A DNA stretch of 64,000 nucleotides from Bradyrhizobium roseum (GTDB taxonomy: Bacteria > Pseudomonadota > Alphaproteobacteria > Rhizobiales > Xanthobacteraceae), in NCBI RefSeq assembly GCF_030413175.1, contig NZ_CP129212.1:1798001-1862000 (forward strand). Direction: 5' to 3'. Each line of letters begins with the position of its first letter. The stretch's first letter is position 1. The notes beneath the pieces are model-generated. The model searched no databases, was not told the DNA's origin, and saw only the letters and a program-made list of their open reading frames with translations. Shown piece after piece: positions 17,763 through 24,230 of this stretch. The translations under genes were made by a program, and so were the position numbers.

Positions 17763-19574
17763 CTACTCGCTGTGTCTGCGTCCGCGAGACAGTTTCCTTC
17801 TCACGCCGGTCGTCTCTCCGGCAGGCCGGGTACCTCCCGAGGCCTGCTGCAACTCGTGGCGGAATTCGTCGCGCTTTTCGTGGATCGACGCGACCACCAG
17901 CCCCATCGCGACGCCGAGGCCGATCAGGGCTGCTTCCGATAACAGCAGGCTGGCCTCGATGGTCTCGGGCACCGCATCGGTAACGCCGATCTGATAAAGA
18001 TGTCGCGCATGATCGGCGTCGCGGGCGCGCGACACGACCGGCATGTCCTGCCTGAGCGCACGAACCTGGGCTACGATTTCATCGATGCCCTTGGCCCCGC
18101 TGATGGTGACGATCACCGCCGCAGCCTCCATGAGGCCGCAGCTCTTCAAAAACTCCGGATTGGTCGCTTCCCCATAATAGACGGTGCGTCCCTGCCGGCG
18201 CTGCTCCGGCACGGCTGCGGCGTCATTGTCGACGGCAATGTATCGCAACTGGTGCCGATCGAGCATCGAGCAGACCACTTGCCCGACGCGGCCGTGCCCG
18301 ACGACGATGGCATGGCCGGTGCTCGCGCTCGGTACAACGCTAAGCTCGGGGTCAAGCGGCTTGTCTTCCCGCACCATTGGCGCCAAGCGCCGCGCGACAT
18401 GGGAAAGCGCGGGAATAAGCATCATGGTCAGCGACGTCAGCGCAACGGTGAAGCTCGACACCTTGGCATCGATCAGGCCGAGCGTTGTCGCCATGCCGAT
18501 GCCGACGAAGGCAAACTCGCCACCCGGGCCGAGCAGCAGTCCGGTTTCGATGGAAGCGCGCCAGGAAACGCGAAACAGCCGGGCGAGCGCGATGAGGATG
18601 ATCGCTTTCATGGCGACGAGCCCGATCGCGCCTCCGAGCAGCCAAACGGGATCGCGGGCAAGCTCACGGAAATCGATGTTCATCCCGACCGTAAAGAAGA
18701 ACAGGCCGAGCAGGAGACCCTTGAAAGGATCGATGGCGGTCTCGATCGCCTTGCGGAATTCGGTTTCGGCCAGCAGCAGTCCGGCGACGAAGGCGCCAAG
18801 CGCCATGGAGAAGCCGGCCACGGCGGCGGCCACCCCGGTGGCGACGATCACGAACAGCGTGGTGGCCACGAACAGGTCGCTCATGCCCGCGGACGCGACC
18901 AGACGGAACAGCGGCCGCATCACCACCCGGCCGACGACGACGATGACGCCAAGCGCGATGGCGGCGTTGGCGAGCGCCAGTAGGAGAGCGCCGGCGACCG
19001 AACCGGACCCGCCGGCGCCGTAAATGGAGATGAACAGCAGCAACGGCGCCACCGCCAGATCCTGCGCCAGCAGAACCGCGAAACTAGCGCGGCCCGCGGT
19101 CGTGTTCAGCCGACCCTGCCTCGAAAGCACCTCGACCACGATGGCGGTCGACGACAGCGCCAGGCAGGCACCGATGATGAGCGACACCGGCGGCTTGCCG
19201 CCCGCCAGCGTCACGACGGCAGCGATTGCGGCTGCGGAGAGCGCGATCTGCAGGCTGCCCAATCCAAAAACCAGGCGCCGCATCGTCTTCAGCCGTTCAT
19301 AGGATAGCTCCATGCCGATCAGGAACAGCAGGAACACGATGCCGAGTTCGGCAATGCCCGCGACGTTCTTGGCATCAACGACGCTGAACCAGTACAGCAG
19401 CGGGAACTGGCCGATGAACGAGCCAAGTCCCAGCGGACCGAGGACGGCGCCCGCTACCAGATAGCCAAGGACGGGATTGAAGCCGAACCGGTGCACCAGC
19501 GGAATGATGATGCCCGCCGTGCCGAGCAGGACAAGGACGTCGCTGTAGACGGGAATATTGATCGGCGAAGCCAT
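17763..19574 (-). CDS. CPA2-family cation:proton antiporter with RCK/TrkA-N domain (Kef/YbaL type)
   Basis: 603 residues. The first 390 form about 12 membrane helices starting VLVLLGTAGIIIPLVHRFG, with the typical CPA2 stretches GYLVAGAVLGPLGLG and LFFFTVGMNIDF. After a short linker the cytosolic TrkA-N domain begins GHAIVVGHGRVGQVV with a GxGxxG nucleotide-binding motif. It should exchange K+ or Na+ for H+ under control of a bound nucleotide. No ancillary KefF/G-type gene adjoins it. The C-terminal tail is Arg-rich (RRKLSRGRRHSE). Confidence 0.9.
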   Translation of the reverse strand: MASPINIPVYSDVLVLLGTAGIIIPLVHRFGFNPVLGYLVAGAVLGPLGLGSFIGQFPLLYWFSVVDAKNVAGIAELGIVFLLFLIGMELSYERLKTMRRLVFGLGSLQIALSAAAIAAVVTLAGGKPPVSLIIGACLALSSTAIVVEVLSRQGRLNTTAGRASFAVLLAQDLAVAPLLLFISIYGAGGSGSVAGALLLALANAAIALGVIVVVGRVVMRPLFRLVASAGMSDLFVATTLFVIVATGVAAAVAGFSMALGAFVAGLLLAETEFRKAIETAIDPFKGLLLGLFFFTVGMNIDFRELARDPVWLLGGAIGLVAMKAIILIALARLFRVSWRASIETGLLLGPGGEFAFVGIGMATTLGLIDAKVSSFTVALTSLTMMLIPALSHVARRLAPMVREDKPLDPELSVVPSASTGHAIVVGHGRVGQVVCSMLDRHQLRYIAVDNDAAAVPEQRRQGRTVYYGEATNPEFLKSCGLMEAAAVIVTISGAKGIDEIVAQVRALRQDMPVVSRARDADHARHLYQIGVTDAVPETIEASLLLSEAALIGLGVAMGLVVASIHEKRDEFRHELQQASGGTRPAGETTGVRRKLSRGRRHSE

Positions 19575-19705: not shown

Positions 19706-22084
19706 TTAGAACTTCAGGTTGGCAAACGCCCGCACGCCAATGCCCGGCAGCAGGATCTCATCCTTGTTGAAGGACGCCGAGTTGCGGATGTTCTCGTTCA
19801 AGAGGTTGTTGCCGAGTAGCCCGACCGTCATTTCCCGCGCGCCGAACCAGGTGGGATCGAGCTTGGTTCTGTAGCTGACCTCCGCCTTCAGCAGATTATA
19901 ACCGGCCGTCGGCGTCTCGCCGATCGGCGCGATGTCGTTCTGCGCGAACGCGTGCAGCAGGTTGATCCGCGTCAGCCAGTTGGCGTCGCGCCAGAACAGT
20001 CCGCCGCCGGCGCGCACCGGCGGGATCCGCGGCACGTTGGTGCCGTCATTGAAGGTCGCGCGCACGACGTCGAACTGGTTCTCGATGCCCCAGATGCCGC
20101 CGTTGAGGGTGCCGACGTCCAACTGGCTCTGGAACTCGGCGCCACGGAAGGTGGCGTCGCGTTGCGAGTAGATCGCCTGGTTCAGCTCGAGCGGGAAAGC
20201 CGGATCGGCGGGACCGACGCAGGCAACTTCCTCGCAGGTGTTGCCGGTGAGGCGGCGGTAAATGAAGCCATTGAACTTGGTGTAGTAGGCGGTTGCCTCG
20301 AACCGGAAGGGGCCGGTGGCGCGTCGCAGCCCGATCTCGATCGACTTGGCCGTCTCCAGGCTCAGATTGGGATTGCCGATGTCGAAGGTGACGGTTGCTT
20401 CATGCACCCCGCGCGAAAACAGTTCCGCCGGTTTGGGCGCCCGCTCGACATACTGAGCGGTGATGCTCGCAACCATTTCGCCTGGAAGGTCCTGGAGCAG
20501 TCCGATGCTCGCGCTCTTCGGCGTGAAGGTGAGATTGCGGGCTGTCAGCGGACCGATATCGGCGGGATTGGCATTGAGGTCGAACAACTCCGGAATGAAT
20601 GCCGGCGTCGTTCCGCTCAGGTTGACATGCTCGATCCGGCCGGCGATCTGTGCCCTGGTCGTCTGGGTGAATTTGAGTTCGTTGAAGACGTAGCCGGCGA
20701 CCCGGGTATTCTTGTTGGCGTCAAACAACCCGTTCAGCGGGCTGCCCGGATCGTCCGGGCTCGGCGCTGTCAGCTTCTGATGTCCGGCCTGCAGGCCGAA
20801 GGCGGTCGTGACGGCGGCAAAGCGCGCGTTGAACGGCGACATCTGCACCTCGACGCGCCCTTCCTGTTCCTTATTGGTAAAGCTCTGCCGTACGCCAAGG
20901 GATGCGAGGTCGGTGGGATCGGCGAGCGCGATCTCGCTGTGCTTGTAGTCGGTGGCGCCTGCCCAGAACCTGATGGCGTCGATCGCCGCCGCGTCCGGCC
21001 GGTATTCGCCTTTGGCGGTGAATTTGGTTTGGCGCGCGTCGATCCGGGACAGGTGATCGGACGGTTCGATGCCGGGAATGCGGTACACCGAATCGTTTTG
21101 CGCGATTGCGGCGCCGATGAATCCGCCGTGGAAGATGTAGGAGCCGCCGATCGATGCACCGGTCGACTGCATCGCCGAGTTCGGTTGCCGGCCGTTGACC
21201 GGGCGGGTTTGGTCGAACAGATACGGATAGCTCGGAATGCTGTAATCGCTGGCCTTGCGGCCATAGGCGTCGGCGTGCACAGCGAAATTGCCACCGCCGG
21301 CATCGATCAGGATGCCGCCATCGACCCCGCGGTCGACGGAACTGACGGCCGTTCGGGTTTCGACCGTGACGCAGGAAGGTGATCCGACGTTGGCGAGCGG
21401 CGCCTTCGCCGGCAGTCCGTAGCTCTGGAACGGGGTGGCCGCACAGGAGGGCAGGGCGTCCGGGATCCGGTTGTTGGTCGCGCTGACGACGCCGCCGATC
21501 GATGTCGATCCGTAGCGCAATGCCGCCGGACCACGGATGACTTCGACCTGGTTTATCGCCAGCGGATCGATCGGCACGAAATGATCTTCGCCGAGGTCGG
21601 AGGCGCCGCCGGCGTTGATGCCGTTCTCGAGGATGCCGACGCGATTGACGTCGAGGCCCCGGATGATCGGCCGGCTCGCCGCGCCCGGCGCGAAGGTGGA
21701 GCCGGTAATGCCGGGCTTCGAGAACAGGAGATCGCCAAGCTGGGCGGTGCCTTGGCGGCGGATCTCCTCGTTGGGCACCACGGTGACCGTGGCGAACTGA
21801 TCGGTCACGACAGGCAGAATGCCCTGTTGAGGCGCGGCGGCGACCGGTGCGGCTGGCGGCTCCGGAGCGCGTTCGCGGTTCTGGCCGGGGGCCGCACGGG
21901 TAACGCGCGCCGGCGTTTGCGGGGGCGCTGGCTTGCGCCGCACGATCGGGCTCGGCGCCGTCACGGTGATTTCAGGCAGGGGCGTCGCCGCCGCATTCTG
22001 CGCCGCTGCTCCGTCGGCCATCGCGCACAGCAATAGCCCGCTTGCTCCACCGAGATGGAACGCTCGCTTCTTCAAAAATGTCAT
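19706..22084 (-). CDS. TonB-dependent outer-membrane receptor, probable zinc uptake (ZnuD-like)
   Basis: 792 residues. The signal peptide (GGASGLLLCAMADGAAAQ) is followed by a Pro/Arg-rich region, a plug domain near residues 90-210 (PIIRGLDVNRVGILENGI, GPAALRYGSTSIGG), and a beta-barrel ending in a terminal aromatic (RAFANLKF), as outer-membrane insertion needs. Two Cys pairs (SCAAT/PSC and TCEEVAC) could close extracellular loops. The segment ATDYKHSEIA is typical of ZnuD-like receptors. It lies downstream of a DUF2946-like gene whose promoter carries a Zur-type palindrome, so zinc is the favoured cargo. Another metal or metallophore remains possible. Confidence 0.87.
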   Translation of the reverse strand: MTFLKKRAFHLGGASGLLLCAMADGAAAQNAAATPLPEITVTAPSPIVRRKPAPPQTPARVTRAAPGQNRERAPEPPAAPVAAAPQQGILPVVTDQFATVTVVPNEEIRRQGTAQLGDLLFSKPGITGSTFAPGAASRPIIRGLDVNRVGILENGINAGGASDLGEDHFVPIDPLAINQVEVIRGPAALRYGSTSIGGVVSATNNRIPDALPSCAATPFQSYGLPAKAPLANVGSPSCVTVETRTAVSSVDRGVDGGILIDAGGGNFAVHADAYGRKASDYSIPSYPYLFDQTRPVNGRQPNSAMQSTGASIGGSYIFHGGFIGAAIAQNDSVYRIPGIEPSDHLSRIDARQTKFTAKGEYRPDAAAIDAIRFWAGATDYKHSEIALADPTDLASLGVRQSFTNKEQEGRVEVQMSPFNARFAAVTTAFGLQAGHQKLTAPSPDDPGSPLNGLFDANKNTRVAGYVFNELKFTQTTRAQIAGRIEHVNLSGTTPAFIPELFDLNANPADIGPLTARNLTFTPKSASIGLLQDLPGEMVASITAQYVERAPKPAELFSRGVHEATVTFDIGNPNLSLETAKSIEIGLRRATGPFRFEATAYYTKFNGFIYRRLTGNTCEEVACVGPADPAFPLELNQAIYSQRDATFRGAEFQSQLDVGTLNGGIWGIENQFDVVRATFNDGTNVPRIPPVRAGGGLFWRDANWLTRINLLHAFAQNDIAPIGETPTAGYNLLKAEVSYRTKLDPTWFGAREMTVGLLGNNLLNENIRNSASFNKDEILLPGIGVRAFANLKF

Positions 22085-22194
22085 TGTCCCGATCCTGATT
22101 CCGTCGATGGGCGACGGATCGATTCCGATTTTCCCTCGGTGGGTCAGCCGCGTGGCGCGGCGCGCCCCTTGAGGCGTGTGTCAATCAATCGAGG

Positions 22195-22608
22195 TCAGGA
22201 GGTGGGTGGTGCGCGGGACTGGAATGCGGAATGGAGCGAGCCGAGATGCGCGAACCCGGCGTCGGTGCTCACGTGCAGGAGTTGGACCGCCTGCGGCAGT
22301 TCCAGCAGCGGCGGCGTGGCAAACACGAAGGTGTTCGCCAGCGAGAGAACGGCGCACATCGCGCAGTCGGAGCCGTGCCGGTCGGTATCCGGGGCGGGGG
22401 GCTGCTGCTGCGCGACTTCGGAGGGAACCTCTGCGGCCGTCAGCGTTGCAGCAATGTCGTCGCCCGCGTCGTTCAGCGCGGCCTGGACAGCCGGCGCAGC
22501 GTGGGCGATCTCCCCGTGGAAATGTCCGAACGACAACGCAAACTGGATCGCGAGCGCAAACAGCGCCAGCCGCGAGCCAGATTTGATGTTCGACCGAAAC
22601 CACTTCAT
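22195..22608 (-). CDS. DUF2946-like small membrane/periplasmic protein, Zur-regulated
   Basis: 137 residues. An N-terminal hydrophobic helix (LALFALAIQFALSFGHFHG) is followed by a polar region with potential metal ligands: HFHGEIAH, then DRHGSDCAMCAVL with a CxxC pair, and a second hydrophobic stretch (LANTFVFATPP). This is the DUF2946 arrangement. It begins 50 bases downstream of a perfect 19-bp palindrome of Zur-box type and precedes the TonB receptor by 110 bases on the same strand. I infer a role in zinc acquisition, perhaps periplasmic metal handling; no biochemical function is established. Confidence 0.72.
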   Translation of the reverse strand: MKWFRSNIKSGSRLALFALAIQFALSFGHFHGEIAHAAPAVQAALNDAGDDIAATLTAAEVPSEVAQQQPPAPDTDRHGSDCAMCAVLSLANTFVFATPPLLELPQAVQLLHVSTDAGFAHLGSLHSAFQSRAPPTS

Positions 22609-22625
22609 GCCGACAGGCGCCCCAC

Positions 22626-22660
22626 ATCGAAGGGCCGGAAGCCCTTCCGACCCCTTCGAT
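22626..22660. other. 35-base hairpin abutting the Zur palindrome
   Basis: ATCGAAGGG and CCCTTCGAT form a 9-bp stem whose interior CGGAA-GCCC-TTCCG extends the hairpin. It occupies the 5' leader of the DUF2946-like gene and shares its last bases with the Zur palindrome at 22658. It may affect mRNA stability or access to the ribosome site. Confidence 0.5.
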
Positions 22661-22676
22661 GTTATAAAATAACATC
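22658..22676 (-). promoter_or_regulatory. Zur-type operator upstream of DUF2946-TonB receptor
   Basis: A perfect palindrome: GATGTTAT, AAA, ATAACATC. The half-site TGTTAT/ATAACA is the core of alphaproteobacterial Zur boxes (general consensus close to GTTATnnTATAAC). It lies 50 bases before the ATG at 22608. In the presence of zinc, Zur would be expected to bind and repress. Confidence 0.78.
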
Positions 22677-22909
22677 AGGCATCGCCGGACCGGTCAACCT
22701 GGGCCAGTCTGCGTGGCGGCACAATCTGAACAGCCTGTGTGATTAGGGCAACGGTGGACACCTTCAGGCGGCGAGCGCGCGGTGCGTCAGCGCTCCCTTG
22801 CTCGGTCAAACGAATGCGCTTGGATGCTGTCTCGTCTGGCTGGCGGACGACACCGCGGGGGGACCGATAAGGGCCATCATCCCGGTTGGTCTGACGCCGA
22901 TTTTCCTGG

Positions 22910-22938
22910 TTGACAGCCCTTCGACTTCGAATGTTATG
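22910..22938 (+). promoter_or_regulatory. Sigma-70-like promoter for the zinc GTPase gene
   Basis: TTGACA at 22910-22915 is followed after 17 bases by GTTATG (22933-22938). The -10 region overlaps the left edge of the Zur palindrome at 22936, the expected geometry for repression. The region between 22677 and 22909 shows no open frame or structure I would annotate. Confidence 0.5.
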
Positions 22939-22952
22939 TTATAATATAACAT
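22936..22952 (+). promoter_or_regulatory. Zur-type operator upstream of the CobW/ZigA-type GTPase
   Basis: ATGTTATA, A, TATAACAT: a perfect 17-bp palindrome containing GTTATAATATAAC, which matches the alphaproteobacterial Zur consensus as I know it. It lies 69 bases before the GTPase start. Together with the palindrome at 22658-22676 it makes a divergent zinc-starvation control region. Confidence 0.82.
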
Positions 22953-23021
22953 TTCGGAGCCCCCTCATGCCCCGCCACTCCCCAGTGGGACTCCGTCAAC
23001 TCAACAGGCTCTTCGATCTCC

Positions 23022-24230
23022 ATGCAAAAACTCCCCGTCACCGTCTTGTCCGGCTTCCTCGGGGCTGGAAAGACCACTTTGCTGAACCACGTGCTGAACA
23101 ACCGCCAGGGCCTGAAGGTGGCGGTGATCGTGAACGACATGAGCGAGGTGAACATCGACGCCGACCTGGTGCGAGACGGCGGGGCGAACCTCTCAAGGAC
23201 TGACGAAAAGCTGGTCGAAATGACCAACGGCTGCATCTGCTGCACGCTGCGCGACGATTTGTTGAAGGAAGTCCGCGCGCTCGCCGAGAGCGAGCGGTTC
23301 GACTACCTCCTGATTGAATCGACCGGTATTTCGGAGCCGCTTCCGGTCGCCGCGACGTTCGATTTCCGCACGGAAGAAGGCGACAGCCTCTCCGACGTGG
23401 CGGTGCTCGACACCATGGTGACGGTGGTCGACGCCGTAAACCTGCTGCGCGACTACGCCTCGTCCGATTTCATCAGGGATCGCGGCGAGTCCCTCGGTGC
23501 CGACGACAAGCGGACGATCGTGGATCTGCTGGTGGAGCAGATCGAATTCGCCGACGTCATTGTCTTGAACAAGATCAACGACACGGCCCCCGGCCAGCTG
23601 GACGCGGCGCGCAAGATCATCCGCGCGCTCAACCCGGTCGCCGATGTCGTTGAGACTGATTTCGCCAAGGCTCCCTTCGAGCGTATCCTTGACACCGGCC
23701 GCTTCGACTTCGCCCGGGCGCAGCAGCATCCGCTCTGGTTCAAGGAACTGTACGGTTTCGGCGATCACACGCCGGAGACCGAGCAGTATGGTGTCGGCAG
23801 TTTCGTCTACCGTGCGCGCCGACCGTTCGAGCCGGCGAAATTCCATCAGTTCCTGCGGGAAAGCTGGCCCGGCGTGATCCGTGCGAAAGGGCATTTCTGG
23901 ATCGCCACGCGTCCACAATGGCTCGGCGAACTGAGCCAGGCGGGCGCCATCGTCCGTACCGAAGGTCTGGGGTTCTGGTGGGCCAACGTGCCTTCTGAAC
24001 GCTGGCCGGACGATCCGGTCTGGCGGAAATCGCTGAAGAAGAACTGGAACGAACTTTATGGCGATCGCCGACAGGAGATCGTCTTCATCGGCACCGATAT
24101 GGACGAGGACGCCATCAAGGCGCGCCTCGATGCATGTCTCGTCTCGGGCAAGCCGGGAATGCACGTCAAGGAATGGGCCGGGCTTGCCGACCCGTTTCCA
24201 AGATGGCTTCGCGCCGACGAGGCGGCCTAG
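23022..24230 (+). CDS. CobW/COG0523 zinc-related GTPase (ZigA/YciC type)
   Basis: 402 residues. The G1 loop [13 protein letters not shown] is at residues 11-23, the CxCC metal-binding motif [11 protein letters not shown] is near residue 72, ESTGISEP is near residue 97 and the nucleotide-specificity NKIN is near residue 186. The C-terminal COG0523 domain has VPSERWPDD and ends WLRADEAA. These proteins are GTP-driven metallochaperones that deliver zinc to client proteins during zinc shortage. The Zur palindrome in its promoter supports a zinc role over the cobalamin role implied by the CobW name. No strong ribosome site precedes the ATG. Confidence 0.9.

Follow-up and report, generated by a model that had tools for sequence, protein, structure and literature searches.

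Here we describe a locus in a 64,000-nucleotide stretch of Bradyrhizobium roseum DNA (contig NZ_CP129212.1, positions 1,798,001 to 1,862,000; hereafter the window), in which the gene of a ZigA zinc metallochaperone GTPase and a small open reading frame (ORF) point away from each other on either side of two Zur-type palindromes, and the small ORF is followed by the gene of a ZnuD-like TonB-dependent receptor. The small ORF looks like a cis-acting, CruR-like arrest leader peptide, and the receptor would probably be controlled twice, by Zur and by this leader. The locus comprises the following features, with positions counted from the first letter of the window.

22658-22676, unstranded: Zur-type box GATGTTAT-AAA-ATAACATC, a palindrome about 50 base pairs upstream of the leader ORF
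22936-22952, unstranded: Zur-type box ATGTTATA-A-TATAACAT, a palindrome upstream of zigA
22931: start of an extra half-site, ATGTTAT, overlapping the 22936 box; box and half-site together span 22931-22952
22195-22608, minus strand: candidate CruR-type (DUF2946-like) arrest leader ORF of 137 amino acids, the probable metal-sensing upstream ORF of the receptor
22516-22524, minus strand: HFH codons, leader residues 29-31; the HxH is conserved across the loci of the genus
22354-22365, minus strand: CXXC motif (CAMC), leader residues 82-85, a putative metal ligand
22204-22215, minus strand: RAPP ribosome-arrest motif, leader residues 132-135, with the stop codon two codons further on
22195-22200, minus strand: anti-Shine-Dalgarno UCCUGA, made up of the leader's last serine codon and its stop codon, complementary to the receptor's Shine-Dalgarno region
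22085-22194, minus strand: intergenic RNA of 110 nucleotides between leader and receptor, with a predicted fold together with the leader end
22093-22098, minus strand: UCAGGA, the receptor's Shine-Dalgarno region, which the predicted helix would mask
19706-22084, minus strand: ZnuD-like TonB-dependent receptor, a probable zinc receptor, with D167/H168, E384 and H561 at mapped ZnuD ligand positions
23022-24230, plus strand: ZigA zinc metallochaperone GTPase (COG0523, CICC motif), matching model NF038288
22624-22662, minus strand: stable hairpin (z score -3.08) near what is presumed to be the 5' end of the leader mRNA, in its untranslated region, with its first bases inside the Zur box

Zur-type boxes and the genes on either side

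An earlier note on this DNA had reported two perfect Zur-type palindromes at 22658 and 22936, and both are present as written. The pattern GTTATN{1,4}ATAAC has two exact matches in the window versus 0.01 expected from shuffles. Over the whole genome (7,319,411 bases), GTTATN{0,4}ATAAC occurs at four places and a backwards control pattern at six, so that the core by itself is not exceptionally rare; the N3 spacing is found at three of the four places, two of them at this locus and one at 6,540,108. This genome scan, proposed in the earlier note, placed all three GTTAT-N3-ATAAC sites at zinc genes, the third (L125, at 6.54 Mb) preceding a histidine-rich ORF of 61 amino acids and then an ATP-binding cassette (ABC) ATPase, an ABC-3 permease and a ZnuA-family binding protein. 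That small ORF (L125:2915-3100, minus strand) has one hydrophobic segment and comes first, before znuC, znuB and znuA. Among the matches listed for the genome there were also at least 11 further Zur-like places with one mismatch. By similarity, the genome encodes a Zur-like regulator: it has four Fur-family genes, and the closest solved relatives of one of the proteins, at 120.5 and 106.3 bits respectively, are 7dh7, titled 'transcriptional regulator fur family', and 4mtd, titled 'zinc uptake regulation protein'; the next scores 32.5. We take 7dh7, whose entry is named only as Fur family, to be a Zur.

For comparison, 195 genomes of the genus were sampled, of which 191 have a match to the leader ORF. 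We examined 70 genus loci (the 30 best and 40 picked down the list, own genome included) as well as 80 named loci, which are the best 80 of 179 relatives and come from genomes overlapping with the 70-locus set. At 69 of the 70 genus loci, a leader-proximal box matches GTTAY-N3-RTAAC exactly (63 loci) or with one mismatch (six); in two control windows taken from each of these loci, nothing comes within two mismatches. Of the 80 named loci, 79 (all except L205) have a box that deviates at no more than one position. In contrast to these boxes, the ZigA motif adjoins the leader at 22 or more of the 70 genus loci (a lower bound, with flanks of about 0.7-1.5 kb) and at five of the 80 named loci (flanks up to 3.5 kb). 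The claim that all three genes form one module thus applies to just part of the genus. On the zigA side, several relatives carry overlapping double boxes. A -10 region overlapping the second palindrome, as claimed earlier, was not confirmed: a promoter scan returned no sigma-70-like site in 22500-23100.

Outside the genus, nine of 18 other alphaproteobacterial ZnuD-type receptors have a box upstream that deviates at one position or none (a set of 20 loci comprising 18 receptors; the stretch examined for L290 is not its true upstream region). Boxes of the same form, experimentally tested, are described for the Caulobacter Zur regulon (znuK, znuL, znuM, zrpWX), where they stand before TonB receptors and zrpW; zrpW is likely cotranscribed with a COG0523 gene and Zur control is experimentally proven (PMC4176598). 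The accessible text of that report describes no arrest leader, which sets the Caulobacter regulon apart from the window, and it lists DUF2946 genes among those lowered in a zur mutant, one of them heading a Zur-activated operon (PMC4176598). Taken as motifs, both palindromes are supported as Zur-type boxes at a zinc locus, and Zur is predicted to bind them.

The two larger genes agree with their earlier description. The GTPase carries the CxCC motif as CICC and exceeds the cut-off of the ZigA model NF038288 (616.3 versus 600 bits). The receptor gene lies beyond the interval 22195-24230 to which the earlier note was confined, and its product does not reach the cut-off of the ZnuD model NF038289 (203 versus 950 bits); its best relative of solved structure is ZnuD (132.2 bits, the next at 39). 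The high-affinity zinc ligands of ZnuD are given as H100, E340 and H499, with D90 printed as the fourth (PMC4557270). The first three align with receptor residues H168, E384 and H561, and while position D90 is not an aspartate by chain numbering, the aspartate preceding H100 aligns with D167. The proposed annotation as a probable zinc receptor can therefore be kept, as ZnuD-like rather than ZnuD proper. A different type of TonB receptor, of about 755 amino acids and not ZnuD-like, appears to stand behind the same kind of leader and Zur box at up to 19-21 of the 77 named loci that have a full-length receptor ORF; at these loci, for example L138, L139, L141 and L147, the leader is kept and the receptor is another.

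The leader ORF and its complementarity to the receptor Shine-Dalgarno region

The small ORF at 22195-22608 had been described as a DUF2946-like gene. The ORF itself is there, and its score (23.5 and 23.0 bits) falls narrowly below the cut-off of 23.7 of the DUF2946 model PF11162, making the family assignment borderline; we describe it by its sequence features as CruR-like and do not count it as a DUF2946 member. Its C terminus reads RAPP-Thr-Ser-stop, with CAMC 46 residues ahead of RAPP. This arrangement hardly varies: CXXC, 46 residues and RAPP or RGPP follow one another at all 70 genus loci and all 80 named loci (RAPP in 78 and RGPP in two of the latter), HxH is likewise present at 70 of 70 and 80 of 80, and exactly two residues follow RAPP at 69 of 70 and 80 of 80. 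The last feature is found in just four of 29 other alphaproteobacterial DUF2946 ORFs, a class-level set with CXXC and RAPP for which 40 listed places were fetched, 11 of them yielding no such ORF. Aligned leaders share a hydrophobic export-like segment, and the leader is the first ORF before a metal-related gene, separated from the ZnuD-like receptor by the 110-nucleotide gap and presumably co-transcribed with it. In a sample of the order, the leader alignment was matched by 20 of 397 genomes, in six of 141 genera. Neither the combination of CXXC with RAPP nor the intergenic helix described below had been noticed in the earlier note.

These features have close counterparts among known arrest leaders. 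In the model for CruR of Bordetella pertussis (bp2923-bfrG-bp2921, a DUF2946 upstream ORF), a ribosome stalled at RAPP is released when copper binds the CXXC, whereupon Rho terminates transcription ahead of the TonB receptor gene (PMC9426467); arrest in vitro depends on RAPP, with its third and fourth residues in the P- and A-site (PMC12992588). As described (PMC9426467), CruR resembles the window leader in being a small ORF with a predicted export signal, first before the receptor gene of a metal-uptake system, with CXXC ahead of a C-terminal RAPP (45 residues apart, compared with 46 in the window) and an intergenic region of more than 100 nucleotides. The differences are the copper response and Rho coupling of CruR, for which a Zur box goes unmentioned in the accessible text (PMC9426467), and, on the side of the window, the Zur-type boxes, HxH, the ZnuD-like receptor and a predicted helix between the leader's stop codon and the receptor's Shine-Dalgarno region. 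CutF of Rhodobacter capsulatus is likewise a DUF2946-like leader with a C-terminal stalling-like sequence, acting through a stem-loop that hides the Shine-Dalgarno of the next gene, but here copper promotes stalling and oxidase expression, and CxxxC and a proline-rich end replace CXXC and RAPP (PMC9973294). In SecM-secA, a stalled ribosome also opens a stem that hides a Shine-Dalgarno and the arrest end RAGP is close to RAPP, while secretion is sensed instead of metal and Zur has no part in the system as reported (PMC10987492). The fixed spacing of CXXC and RAPP, the place of RAPP and the complementarity to the Shine-Dalgarno thus look like those of a cis-acting arrest leader peptide.

The predicted fold of the leader end together with the 110-nucleotide gap pairs UCCUGA with UCAGGA just ahead of the receptor start (z score of the window fold against shuffles -2.95, or -2.31 with slightly different ends). 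The DNA letters concerned are conserved at the level of the codon. Last codon plus stop read TCCTGA at 63 of 70 genus loci and 76 of 80 named loci, and all 63 leaders that end in serine use TCC for it, compared with 120 of 577 internal serine codons. Among the other seven genus loci, four retain CC-TGA through Pro, Ala or Thr, one has GCC-TAA and one GTC-TGA, and the leader of L056 reads through the same TCCTGA letters in another frame. At least five of the bases are paired in the minimum-energy folds of 58 of the 70 loci. With five of 135 sequences excluded for doubtful receptor starts, 110 of the remaining 130 distinct sequences can form six of six pairs (G-U allowed) within 19 nucleotides before the receptor start, versus 73 of 2600 shuffles; five pairs are possible in 17 and four in three. 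In addition, RNAalifold recovered the helix in the 39-sequence group with short gaps, with CCUGA/UCAGG in nearly all members when G-U is counted.

The same closing helix also recurs around unrelated RNA: in L117, from another genus (z score -6.23), and in two paralogues of the leader in its own genome, L067 and L068, where a UCCUGACG/CGUCAGGA helix involves the receptor Shine-Dalgarno (z scores -3.43 and -3.27). This recurrence is a stronger argument than covariation. The edge of a ribosome lies about 15 nucleotides downstream of its P-site. A ribosome stalled with Pro134 in the P-site would cover the anti-Shine-Dalgarno, as its edge would fall right after the stop codon. Masking of the Shine-Dalgarno as in SecM or CutF is a prediction with in silico support from these results, though not from RNAalifold in the group with long gaps.

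The stall could also act through Rho, the stalled ribosome shielding a Rho utilization (rut) site and so blocking termination before the receptor gene, as proposed for CruR. The leader's 3' end does contain a stretch richer in C than in G (37 C versus 17 G in 78 nucleotides), and the CruR precedent speaks for such coupling, which leaves unexplained both the codon-level conservation of UCC-UGA and the pairing with the Shine-Dalgarno; we consider it a possible but doubtful explanation of the locus. Rho coupling and Shine-Dalgarno masking are compatible and can coexist.

The metal and the role of the small protein

Three further DUF2946 genes in the same genome (L067, L068 and L066, at 3452255, 3447547 and 3511547) score above the window leader. 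They have CCxxC with RAPP at 46 or 47 residues and no HxH by eye; no Zur box was found at any of the three, the nearest sequence being at least four mismatches away, and two of them precede other TonB receptors. By their resemblance to CruR, the three would be copper-type, and the window leader differs from them in these same points.

Zinc-uptake genes of another kind have leaders with related features. ZrgA is a zinc uptake protein according to its Pfam description, and histidine-rich CXXC-RAPP ORFs lie upstream of ZrgA at seven of 30 fetched loci, in five genera belonging to four other families of the order (L250, L252, L255, L256, L259, L270 and L273), with a CXXC-RAPP spacing of 45 or 46. 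Allowing one mismatch, the 1.5 kb upstream contain a Zur-like box at nine of the 23 ZrgA loci without a leader ORF and, by the same measure, at one of the seven with a leader ORF (L273). In two genera related to Bradyrhizobium, L117 and L118 combine an exact GTTAC-N3-ATAAC box, a leader, UCCUGA with UCAGGA and a TonB receptor. From these tallies, zinc operons appear to use Zur, a leader or both, the last in Bradyrhizobium and the two related genera.

Judged by its sequence context, the leader's metal is most likely zinc. A leader that senses copper as CruR does, which would let copper block a zinc receptor that Zur controls, we regard as unlikely: CruR is copper specific and senses through CXXC, a motif that the window leader shares, but the paralogues in its own genome have a different metal part and no Zur box, the window leader stands under a Zur-type box ahead of a ZnuD-like receptor, and ZrgA zinc-uptake genes are preceded by histidine-rich leaders. 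In Pseudomonas aeruginosa, PA0433 (DUF2946) and PA0434 (TonB receptor) rise on N-acetylcysteine by log2 0.7 and 1.7; they carry no Zur-regulon mark in the accessible part of the report, and the receptor rises above the leader, which is compatible with leader-type control (PMC9431628).

The earlier note had taken the DUF2946-like protein itself for a new component of zinc handling. As a trans-acting periplasmic part, be it a chaperone or a zinc-binding protein, that Zur regulates together with the receptor, it would account for the hydrophobic N-terminus, for HxH and CXXC as ligands and for the common Zur-type box. We nevertheless rejected this role as very improbable, on the place of RAPP two codons from the stop and 46 residues from CXXC, fixed at 80 of 80 loci, on the complementarity of the stop region to the Shine-Dalgarno, and on the precedent of the relatives CruR and CutF, which are reported not to be complemented in trans and whose proteins went undetected in vivo (PMC9426467, PMC9973294). 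The interpretation given in the earlier note is thus partly supported: its zinc and Zur reading holds and the role of the small ORF is revised. Equally improbable is a stall that reports export by Sec or the signal recognition particle in the manner of SecM, for although RAPP arrest peptides are known upstream of sec genes and the aligned leaders have an export-like segment, an export monitor gives no role to HxH and CXXC, invariant in both alignments, or to the zinc-uptake genes downstream.

Two-layer control of the receptor

We consider it rather probable that this is a zinc-starvation locus whose receptor is under two layers of control, Zur repression and a metal-released arrest leader. Zinc-loaded Zur, bound to both palindromes, would keep zigA and, in the opposite direction, the leader-receptor operon repressed. 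Once the operon is transcribed, the ribosome would first make the leader of 137 amino acids, which is probably exported, and would stall at its C-terminal RAPP. In this position it would sit over UCC-UGA, otherwise paired with the receptor Shine-Dalgarno UCAGGA, and the receptor start site would therefore be open. Metal, most likely zinc, on the nascent HxH/CXXC part would release the stall, upon which the ribosome would depart, the helix close and receptor synthesis end. What the loci themselves show is conservation of the boxes, of motifs and their spacing and of codons, together with RNA complementarity. The Zur layer draws on motif, regulon and precedent; for the leader switch we infer both the stalling and the ligand, and the sign of the metal response is borrowed, by analogy, from CruR.

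Several observations weigh against this two-layer reading. With regard to the helix, the fold predicted for the window itself beats shuffled sequences by a moderate margin only, and in the 91-sequence group, whose gaps are longer and whose alignment is poor at the 3' end, RNAalifold gave no such helix. While at least six complementary bases are found at the leader end in 108 of 135 sequences, a control stretch 30 nucleotides upstream has them in 49 of 135 (those at -60, -90 and -120 nucleotides in 2, 4 and 3). The Shine-Dalgarno is conserved in any case, compensatory changes are scarce because both sides of the helix hardly vary, and the pairing is degraded in L061 and L063. The possibility that the UCCUGA/UCAGGA pairing is general to DUF2946 leaders was rejected, since one of the 29 class-level CXXC-RAPP ORFs ends in TCCTGA. 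None of these 29 other alphaproteobacterial ORFs has a Zur box, and 17 of the 18 other alphaproteobacterial ZnuD-type receptors have no RAPP leader; together, these counts mean that the combination of leader, Zur box and ZnuD-type receptor is lineage-specific. A leader with ZnuD as an alphaproteobacterial rule was accordingly rejected, a RAPP ORF being present upstream of one of the 18 (L287). Furthermore, some of the histidine-rich RAPP leaders at ZrgA loci lack a close Zur-like box, and the ZnuD-type motif test was failed by 21 of the 77 named receptors. At least two of these, L134 and L205, which have ZnuD-type N-termini, probably fail only through small changes; for the others, the zinc evidence from the receptor is inapplicable.

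Two side observations concern individual sites. At L287, from another alphaproteobacterium, the ORF that precedes the ZnuD-type receptor is short, has CHFC and RAPP and lacks a close Zur-like box. Elsewhere in the window, ARAGORN reported a tRNA-like element with undetermined anticodon at 19045-19146 (minus strand), within a transporter-like ORF of 603 amino acids (17763-19574), which is probably false.

A metal-responsive RAPP leader is already known for copper, and the new part would be a zinc-type branch under Zur with the stop codon in the anti-Shine-Dalgarno. According to Roy et al., riboswitches for copper or zinc are undescribed, and the arrest leader is offered as the answer for copper (PMC9426467). 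Neither such a branch nor any zinc-sensing arrest leader was found among the papers listed in our literature search, for which preprints and most subscription papers were outside the scope. We give about even weight to the existence of a zinc-sensing branch of metal-responsive arrest leaders that combines HxH, CXXC and RAPP, gates zinc-uptake genes during its own synthesis and has its stop codon in the anti-Shine-Dalgarno. If it exists, the branch would take in ZnuD-like receptors in Bradyrhizobium, TonB receptors from two or more other genera of its family and, outside that family, ZrgA operons from five genera, and at the present locus a single receptor would receive zinc control twice, at transcription by Zur and through the nascent chain. 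The predicted pairing of stop codon and Shine-Dalgarno is open to test by single synonymous changes. For annotation, we suggest labelling DUF2946-like neighbours of TonB receptors as cis-acting leaders and not as transport components. The leader described here would then be the zinc counterpart of CruR, and part of a widespread 'unknown' family would become testable zinc sensors.

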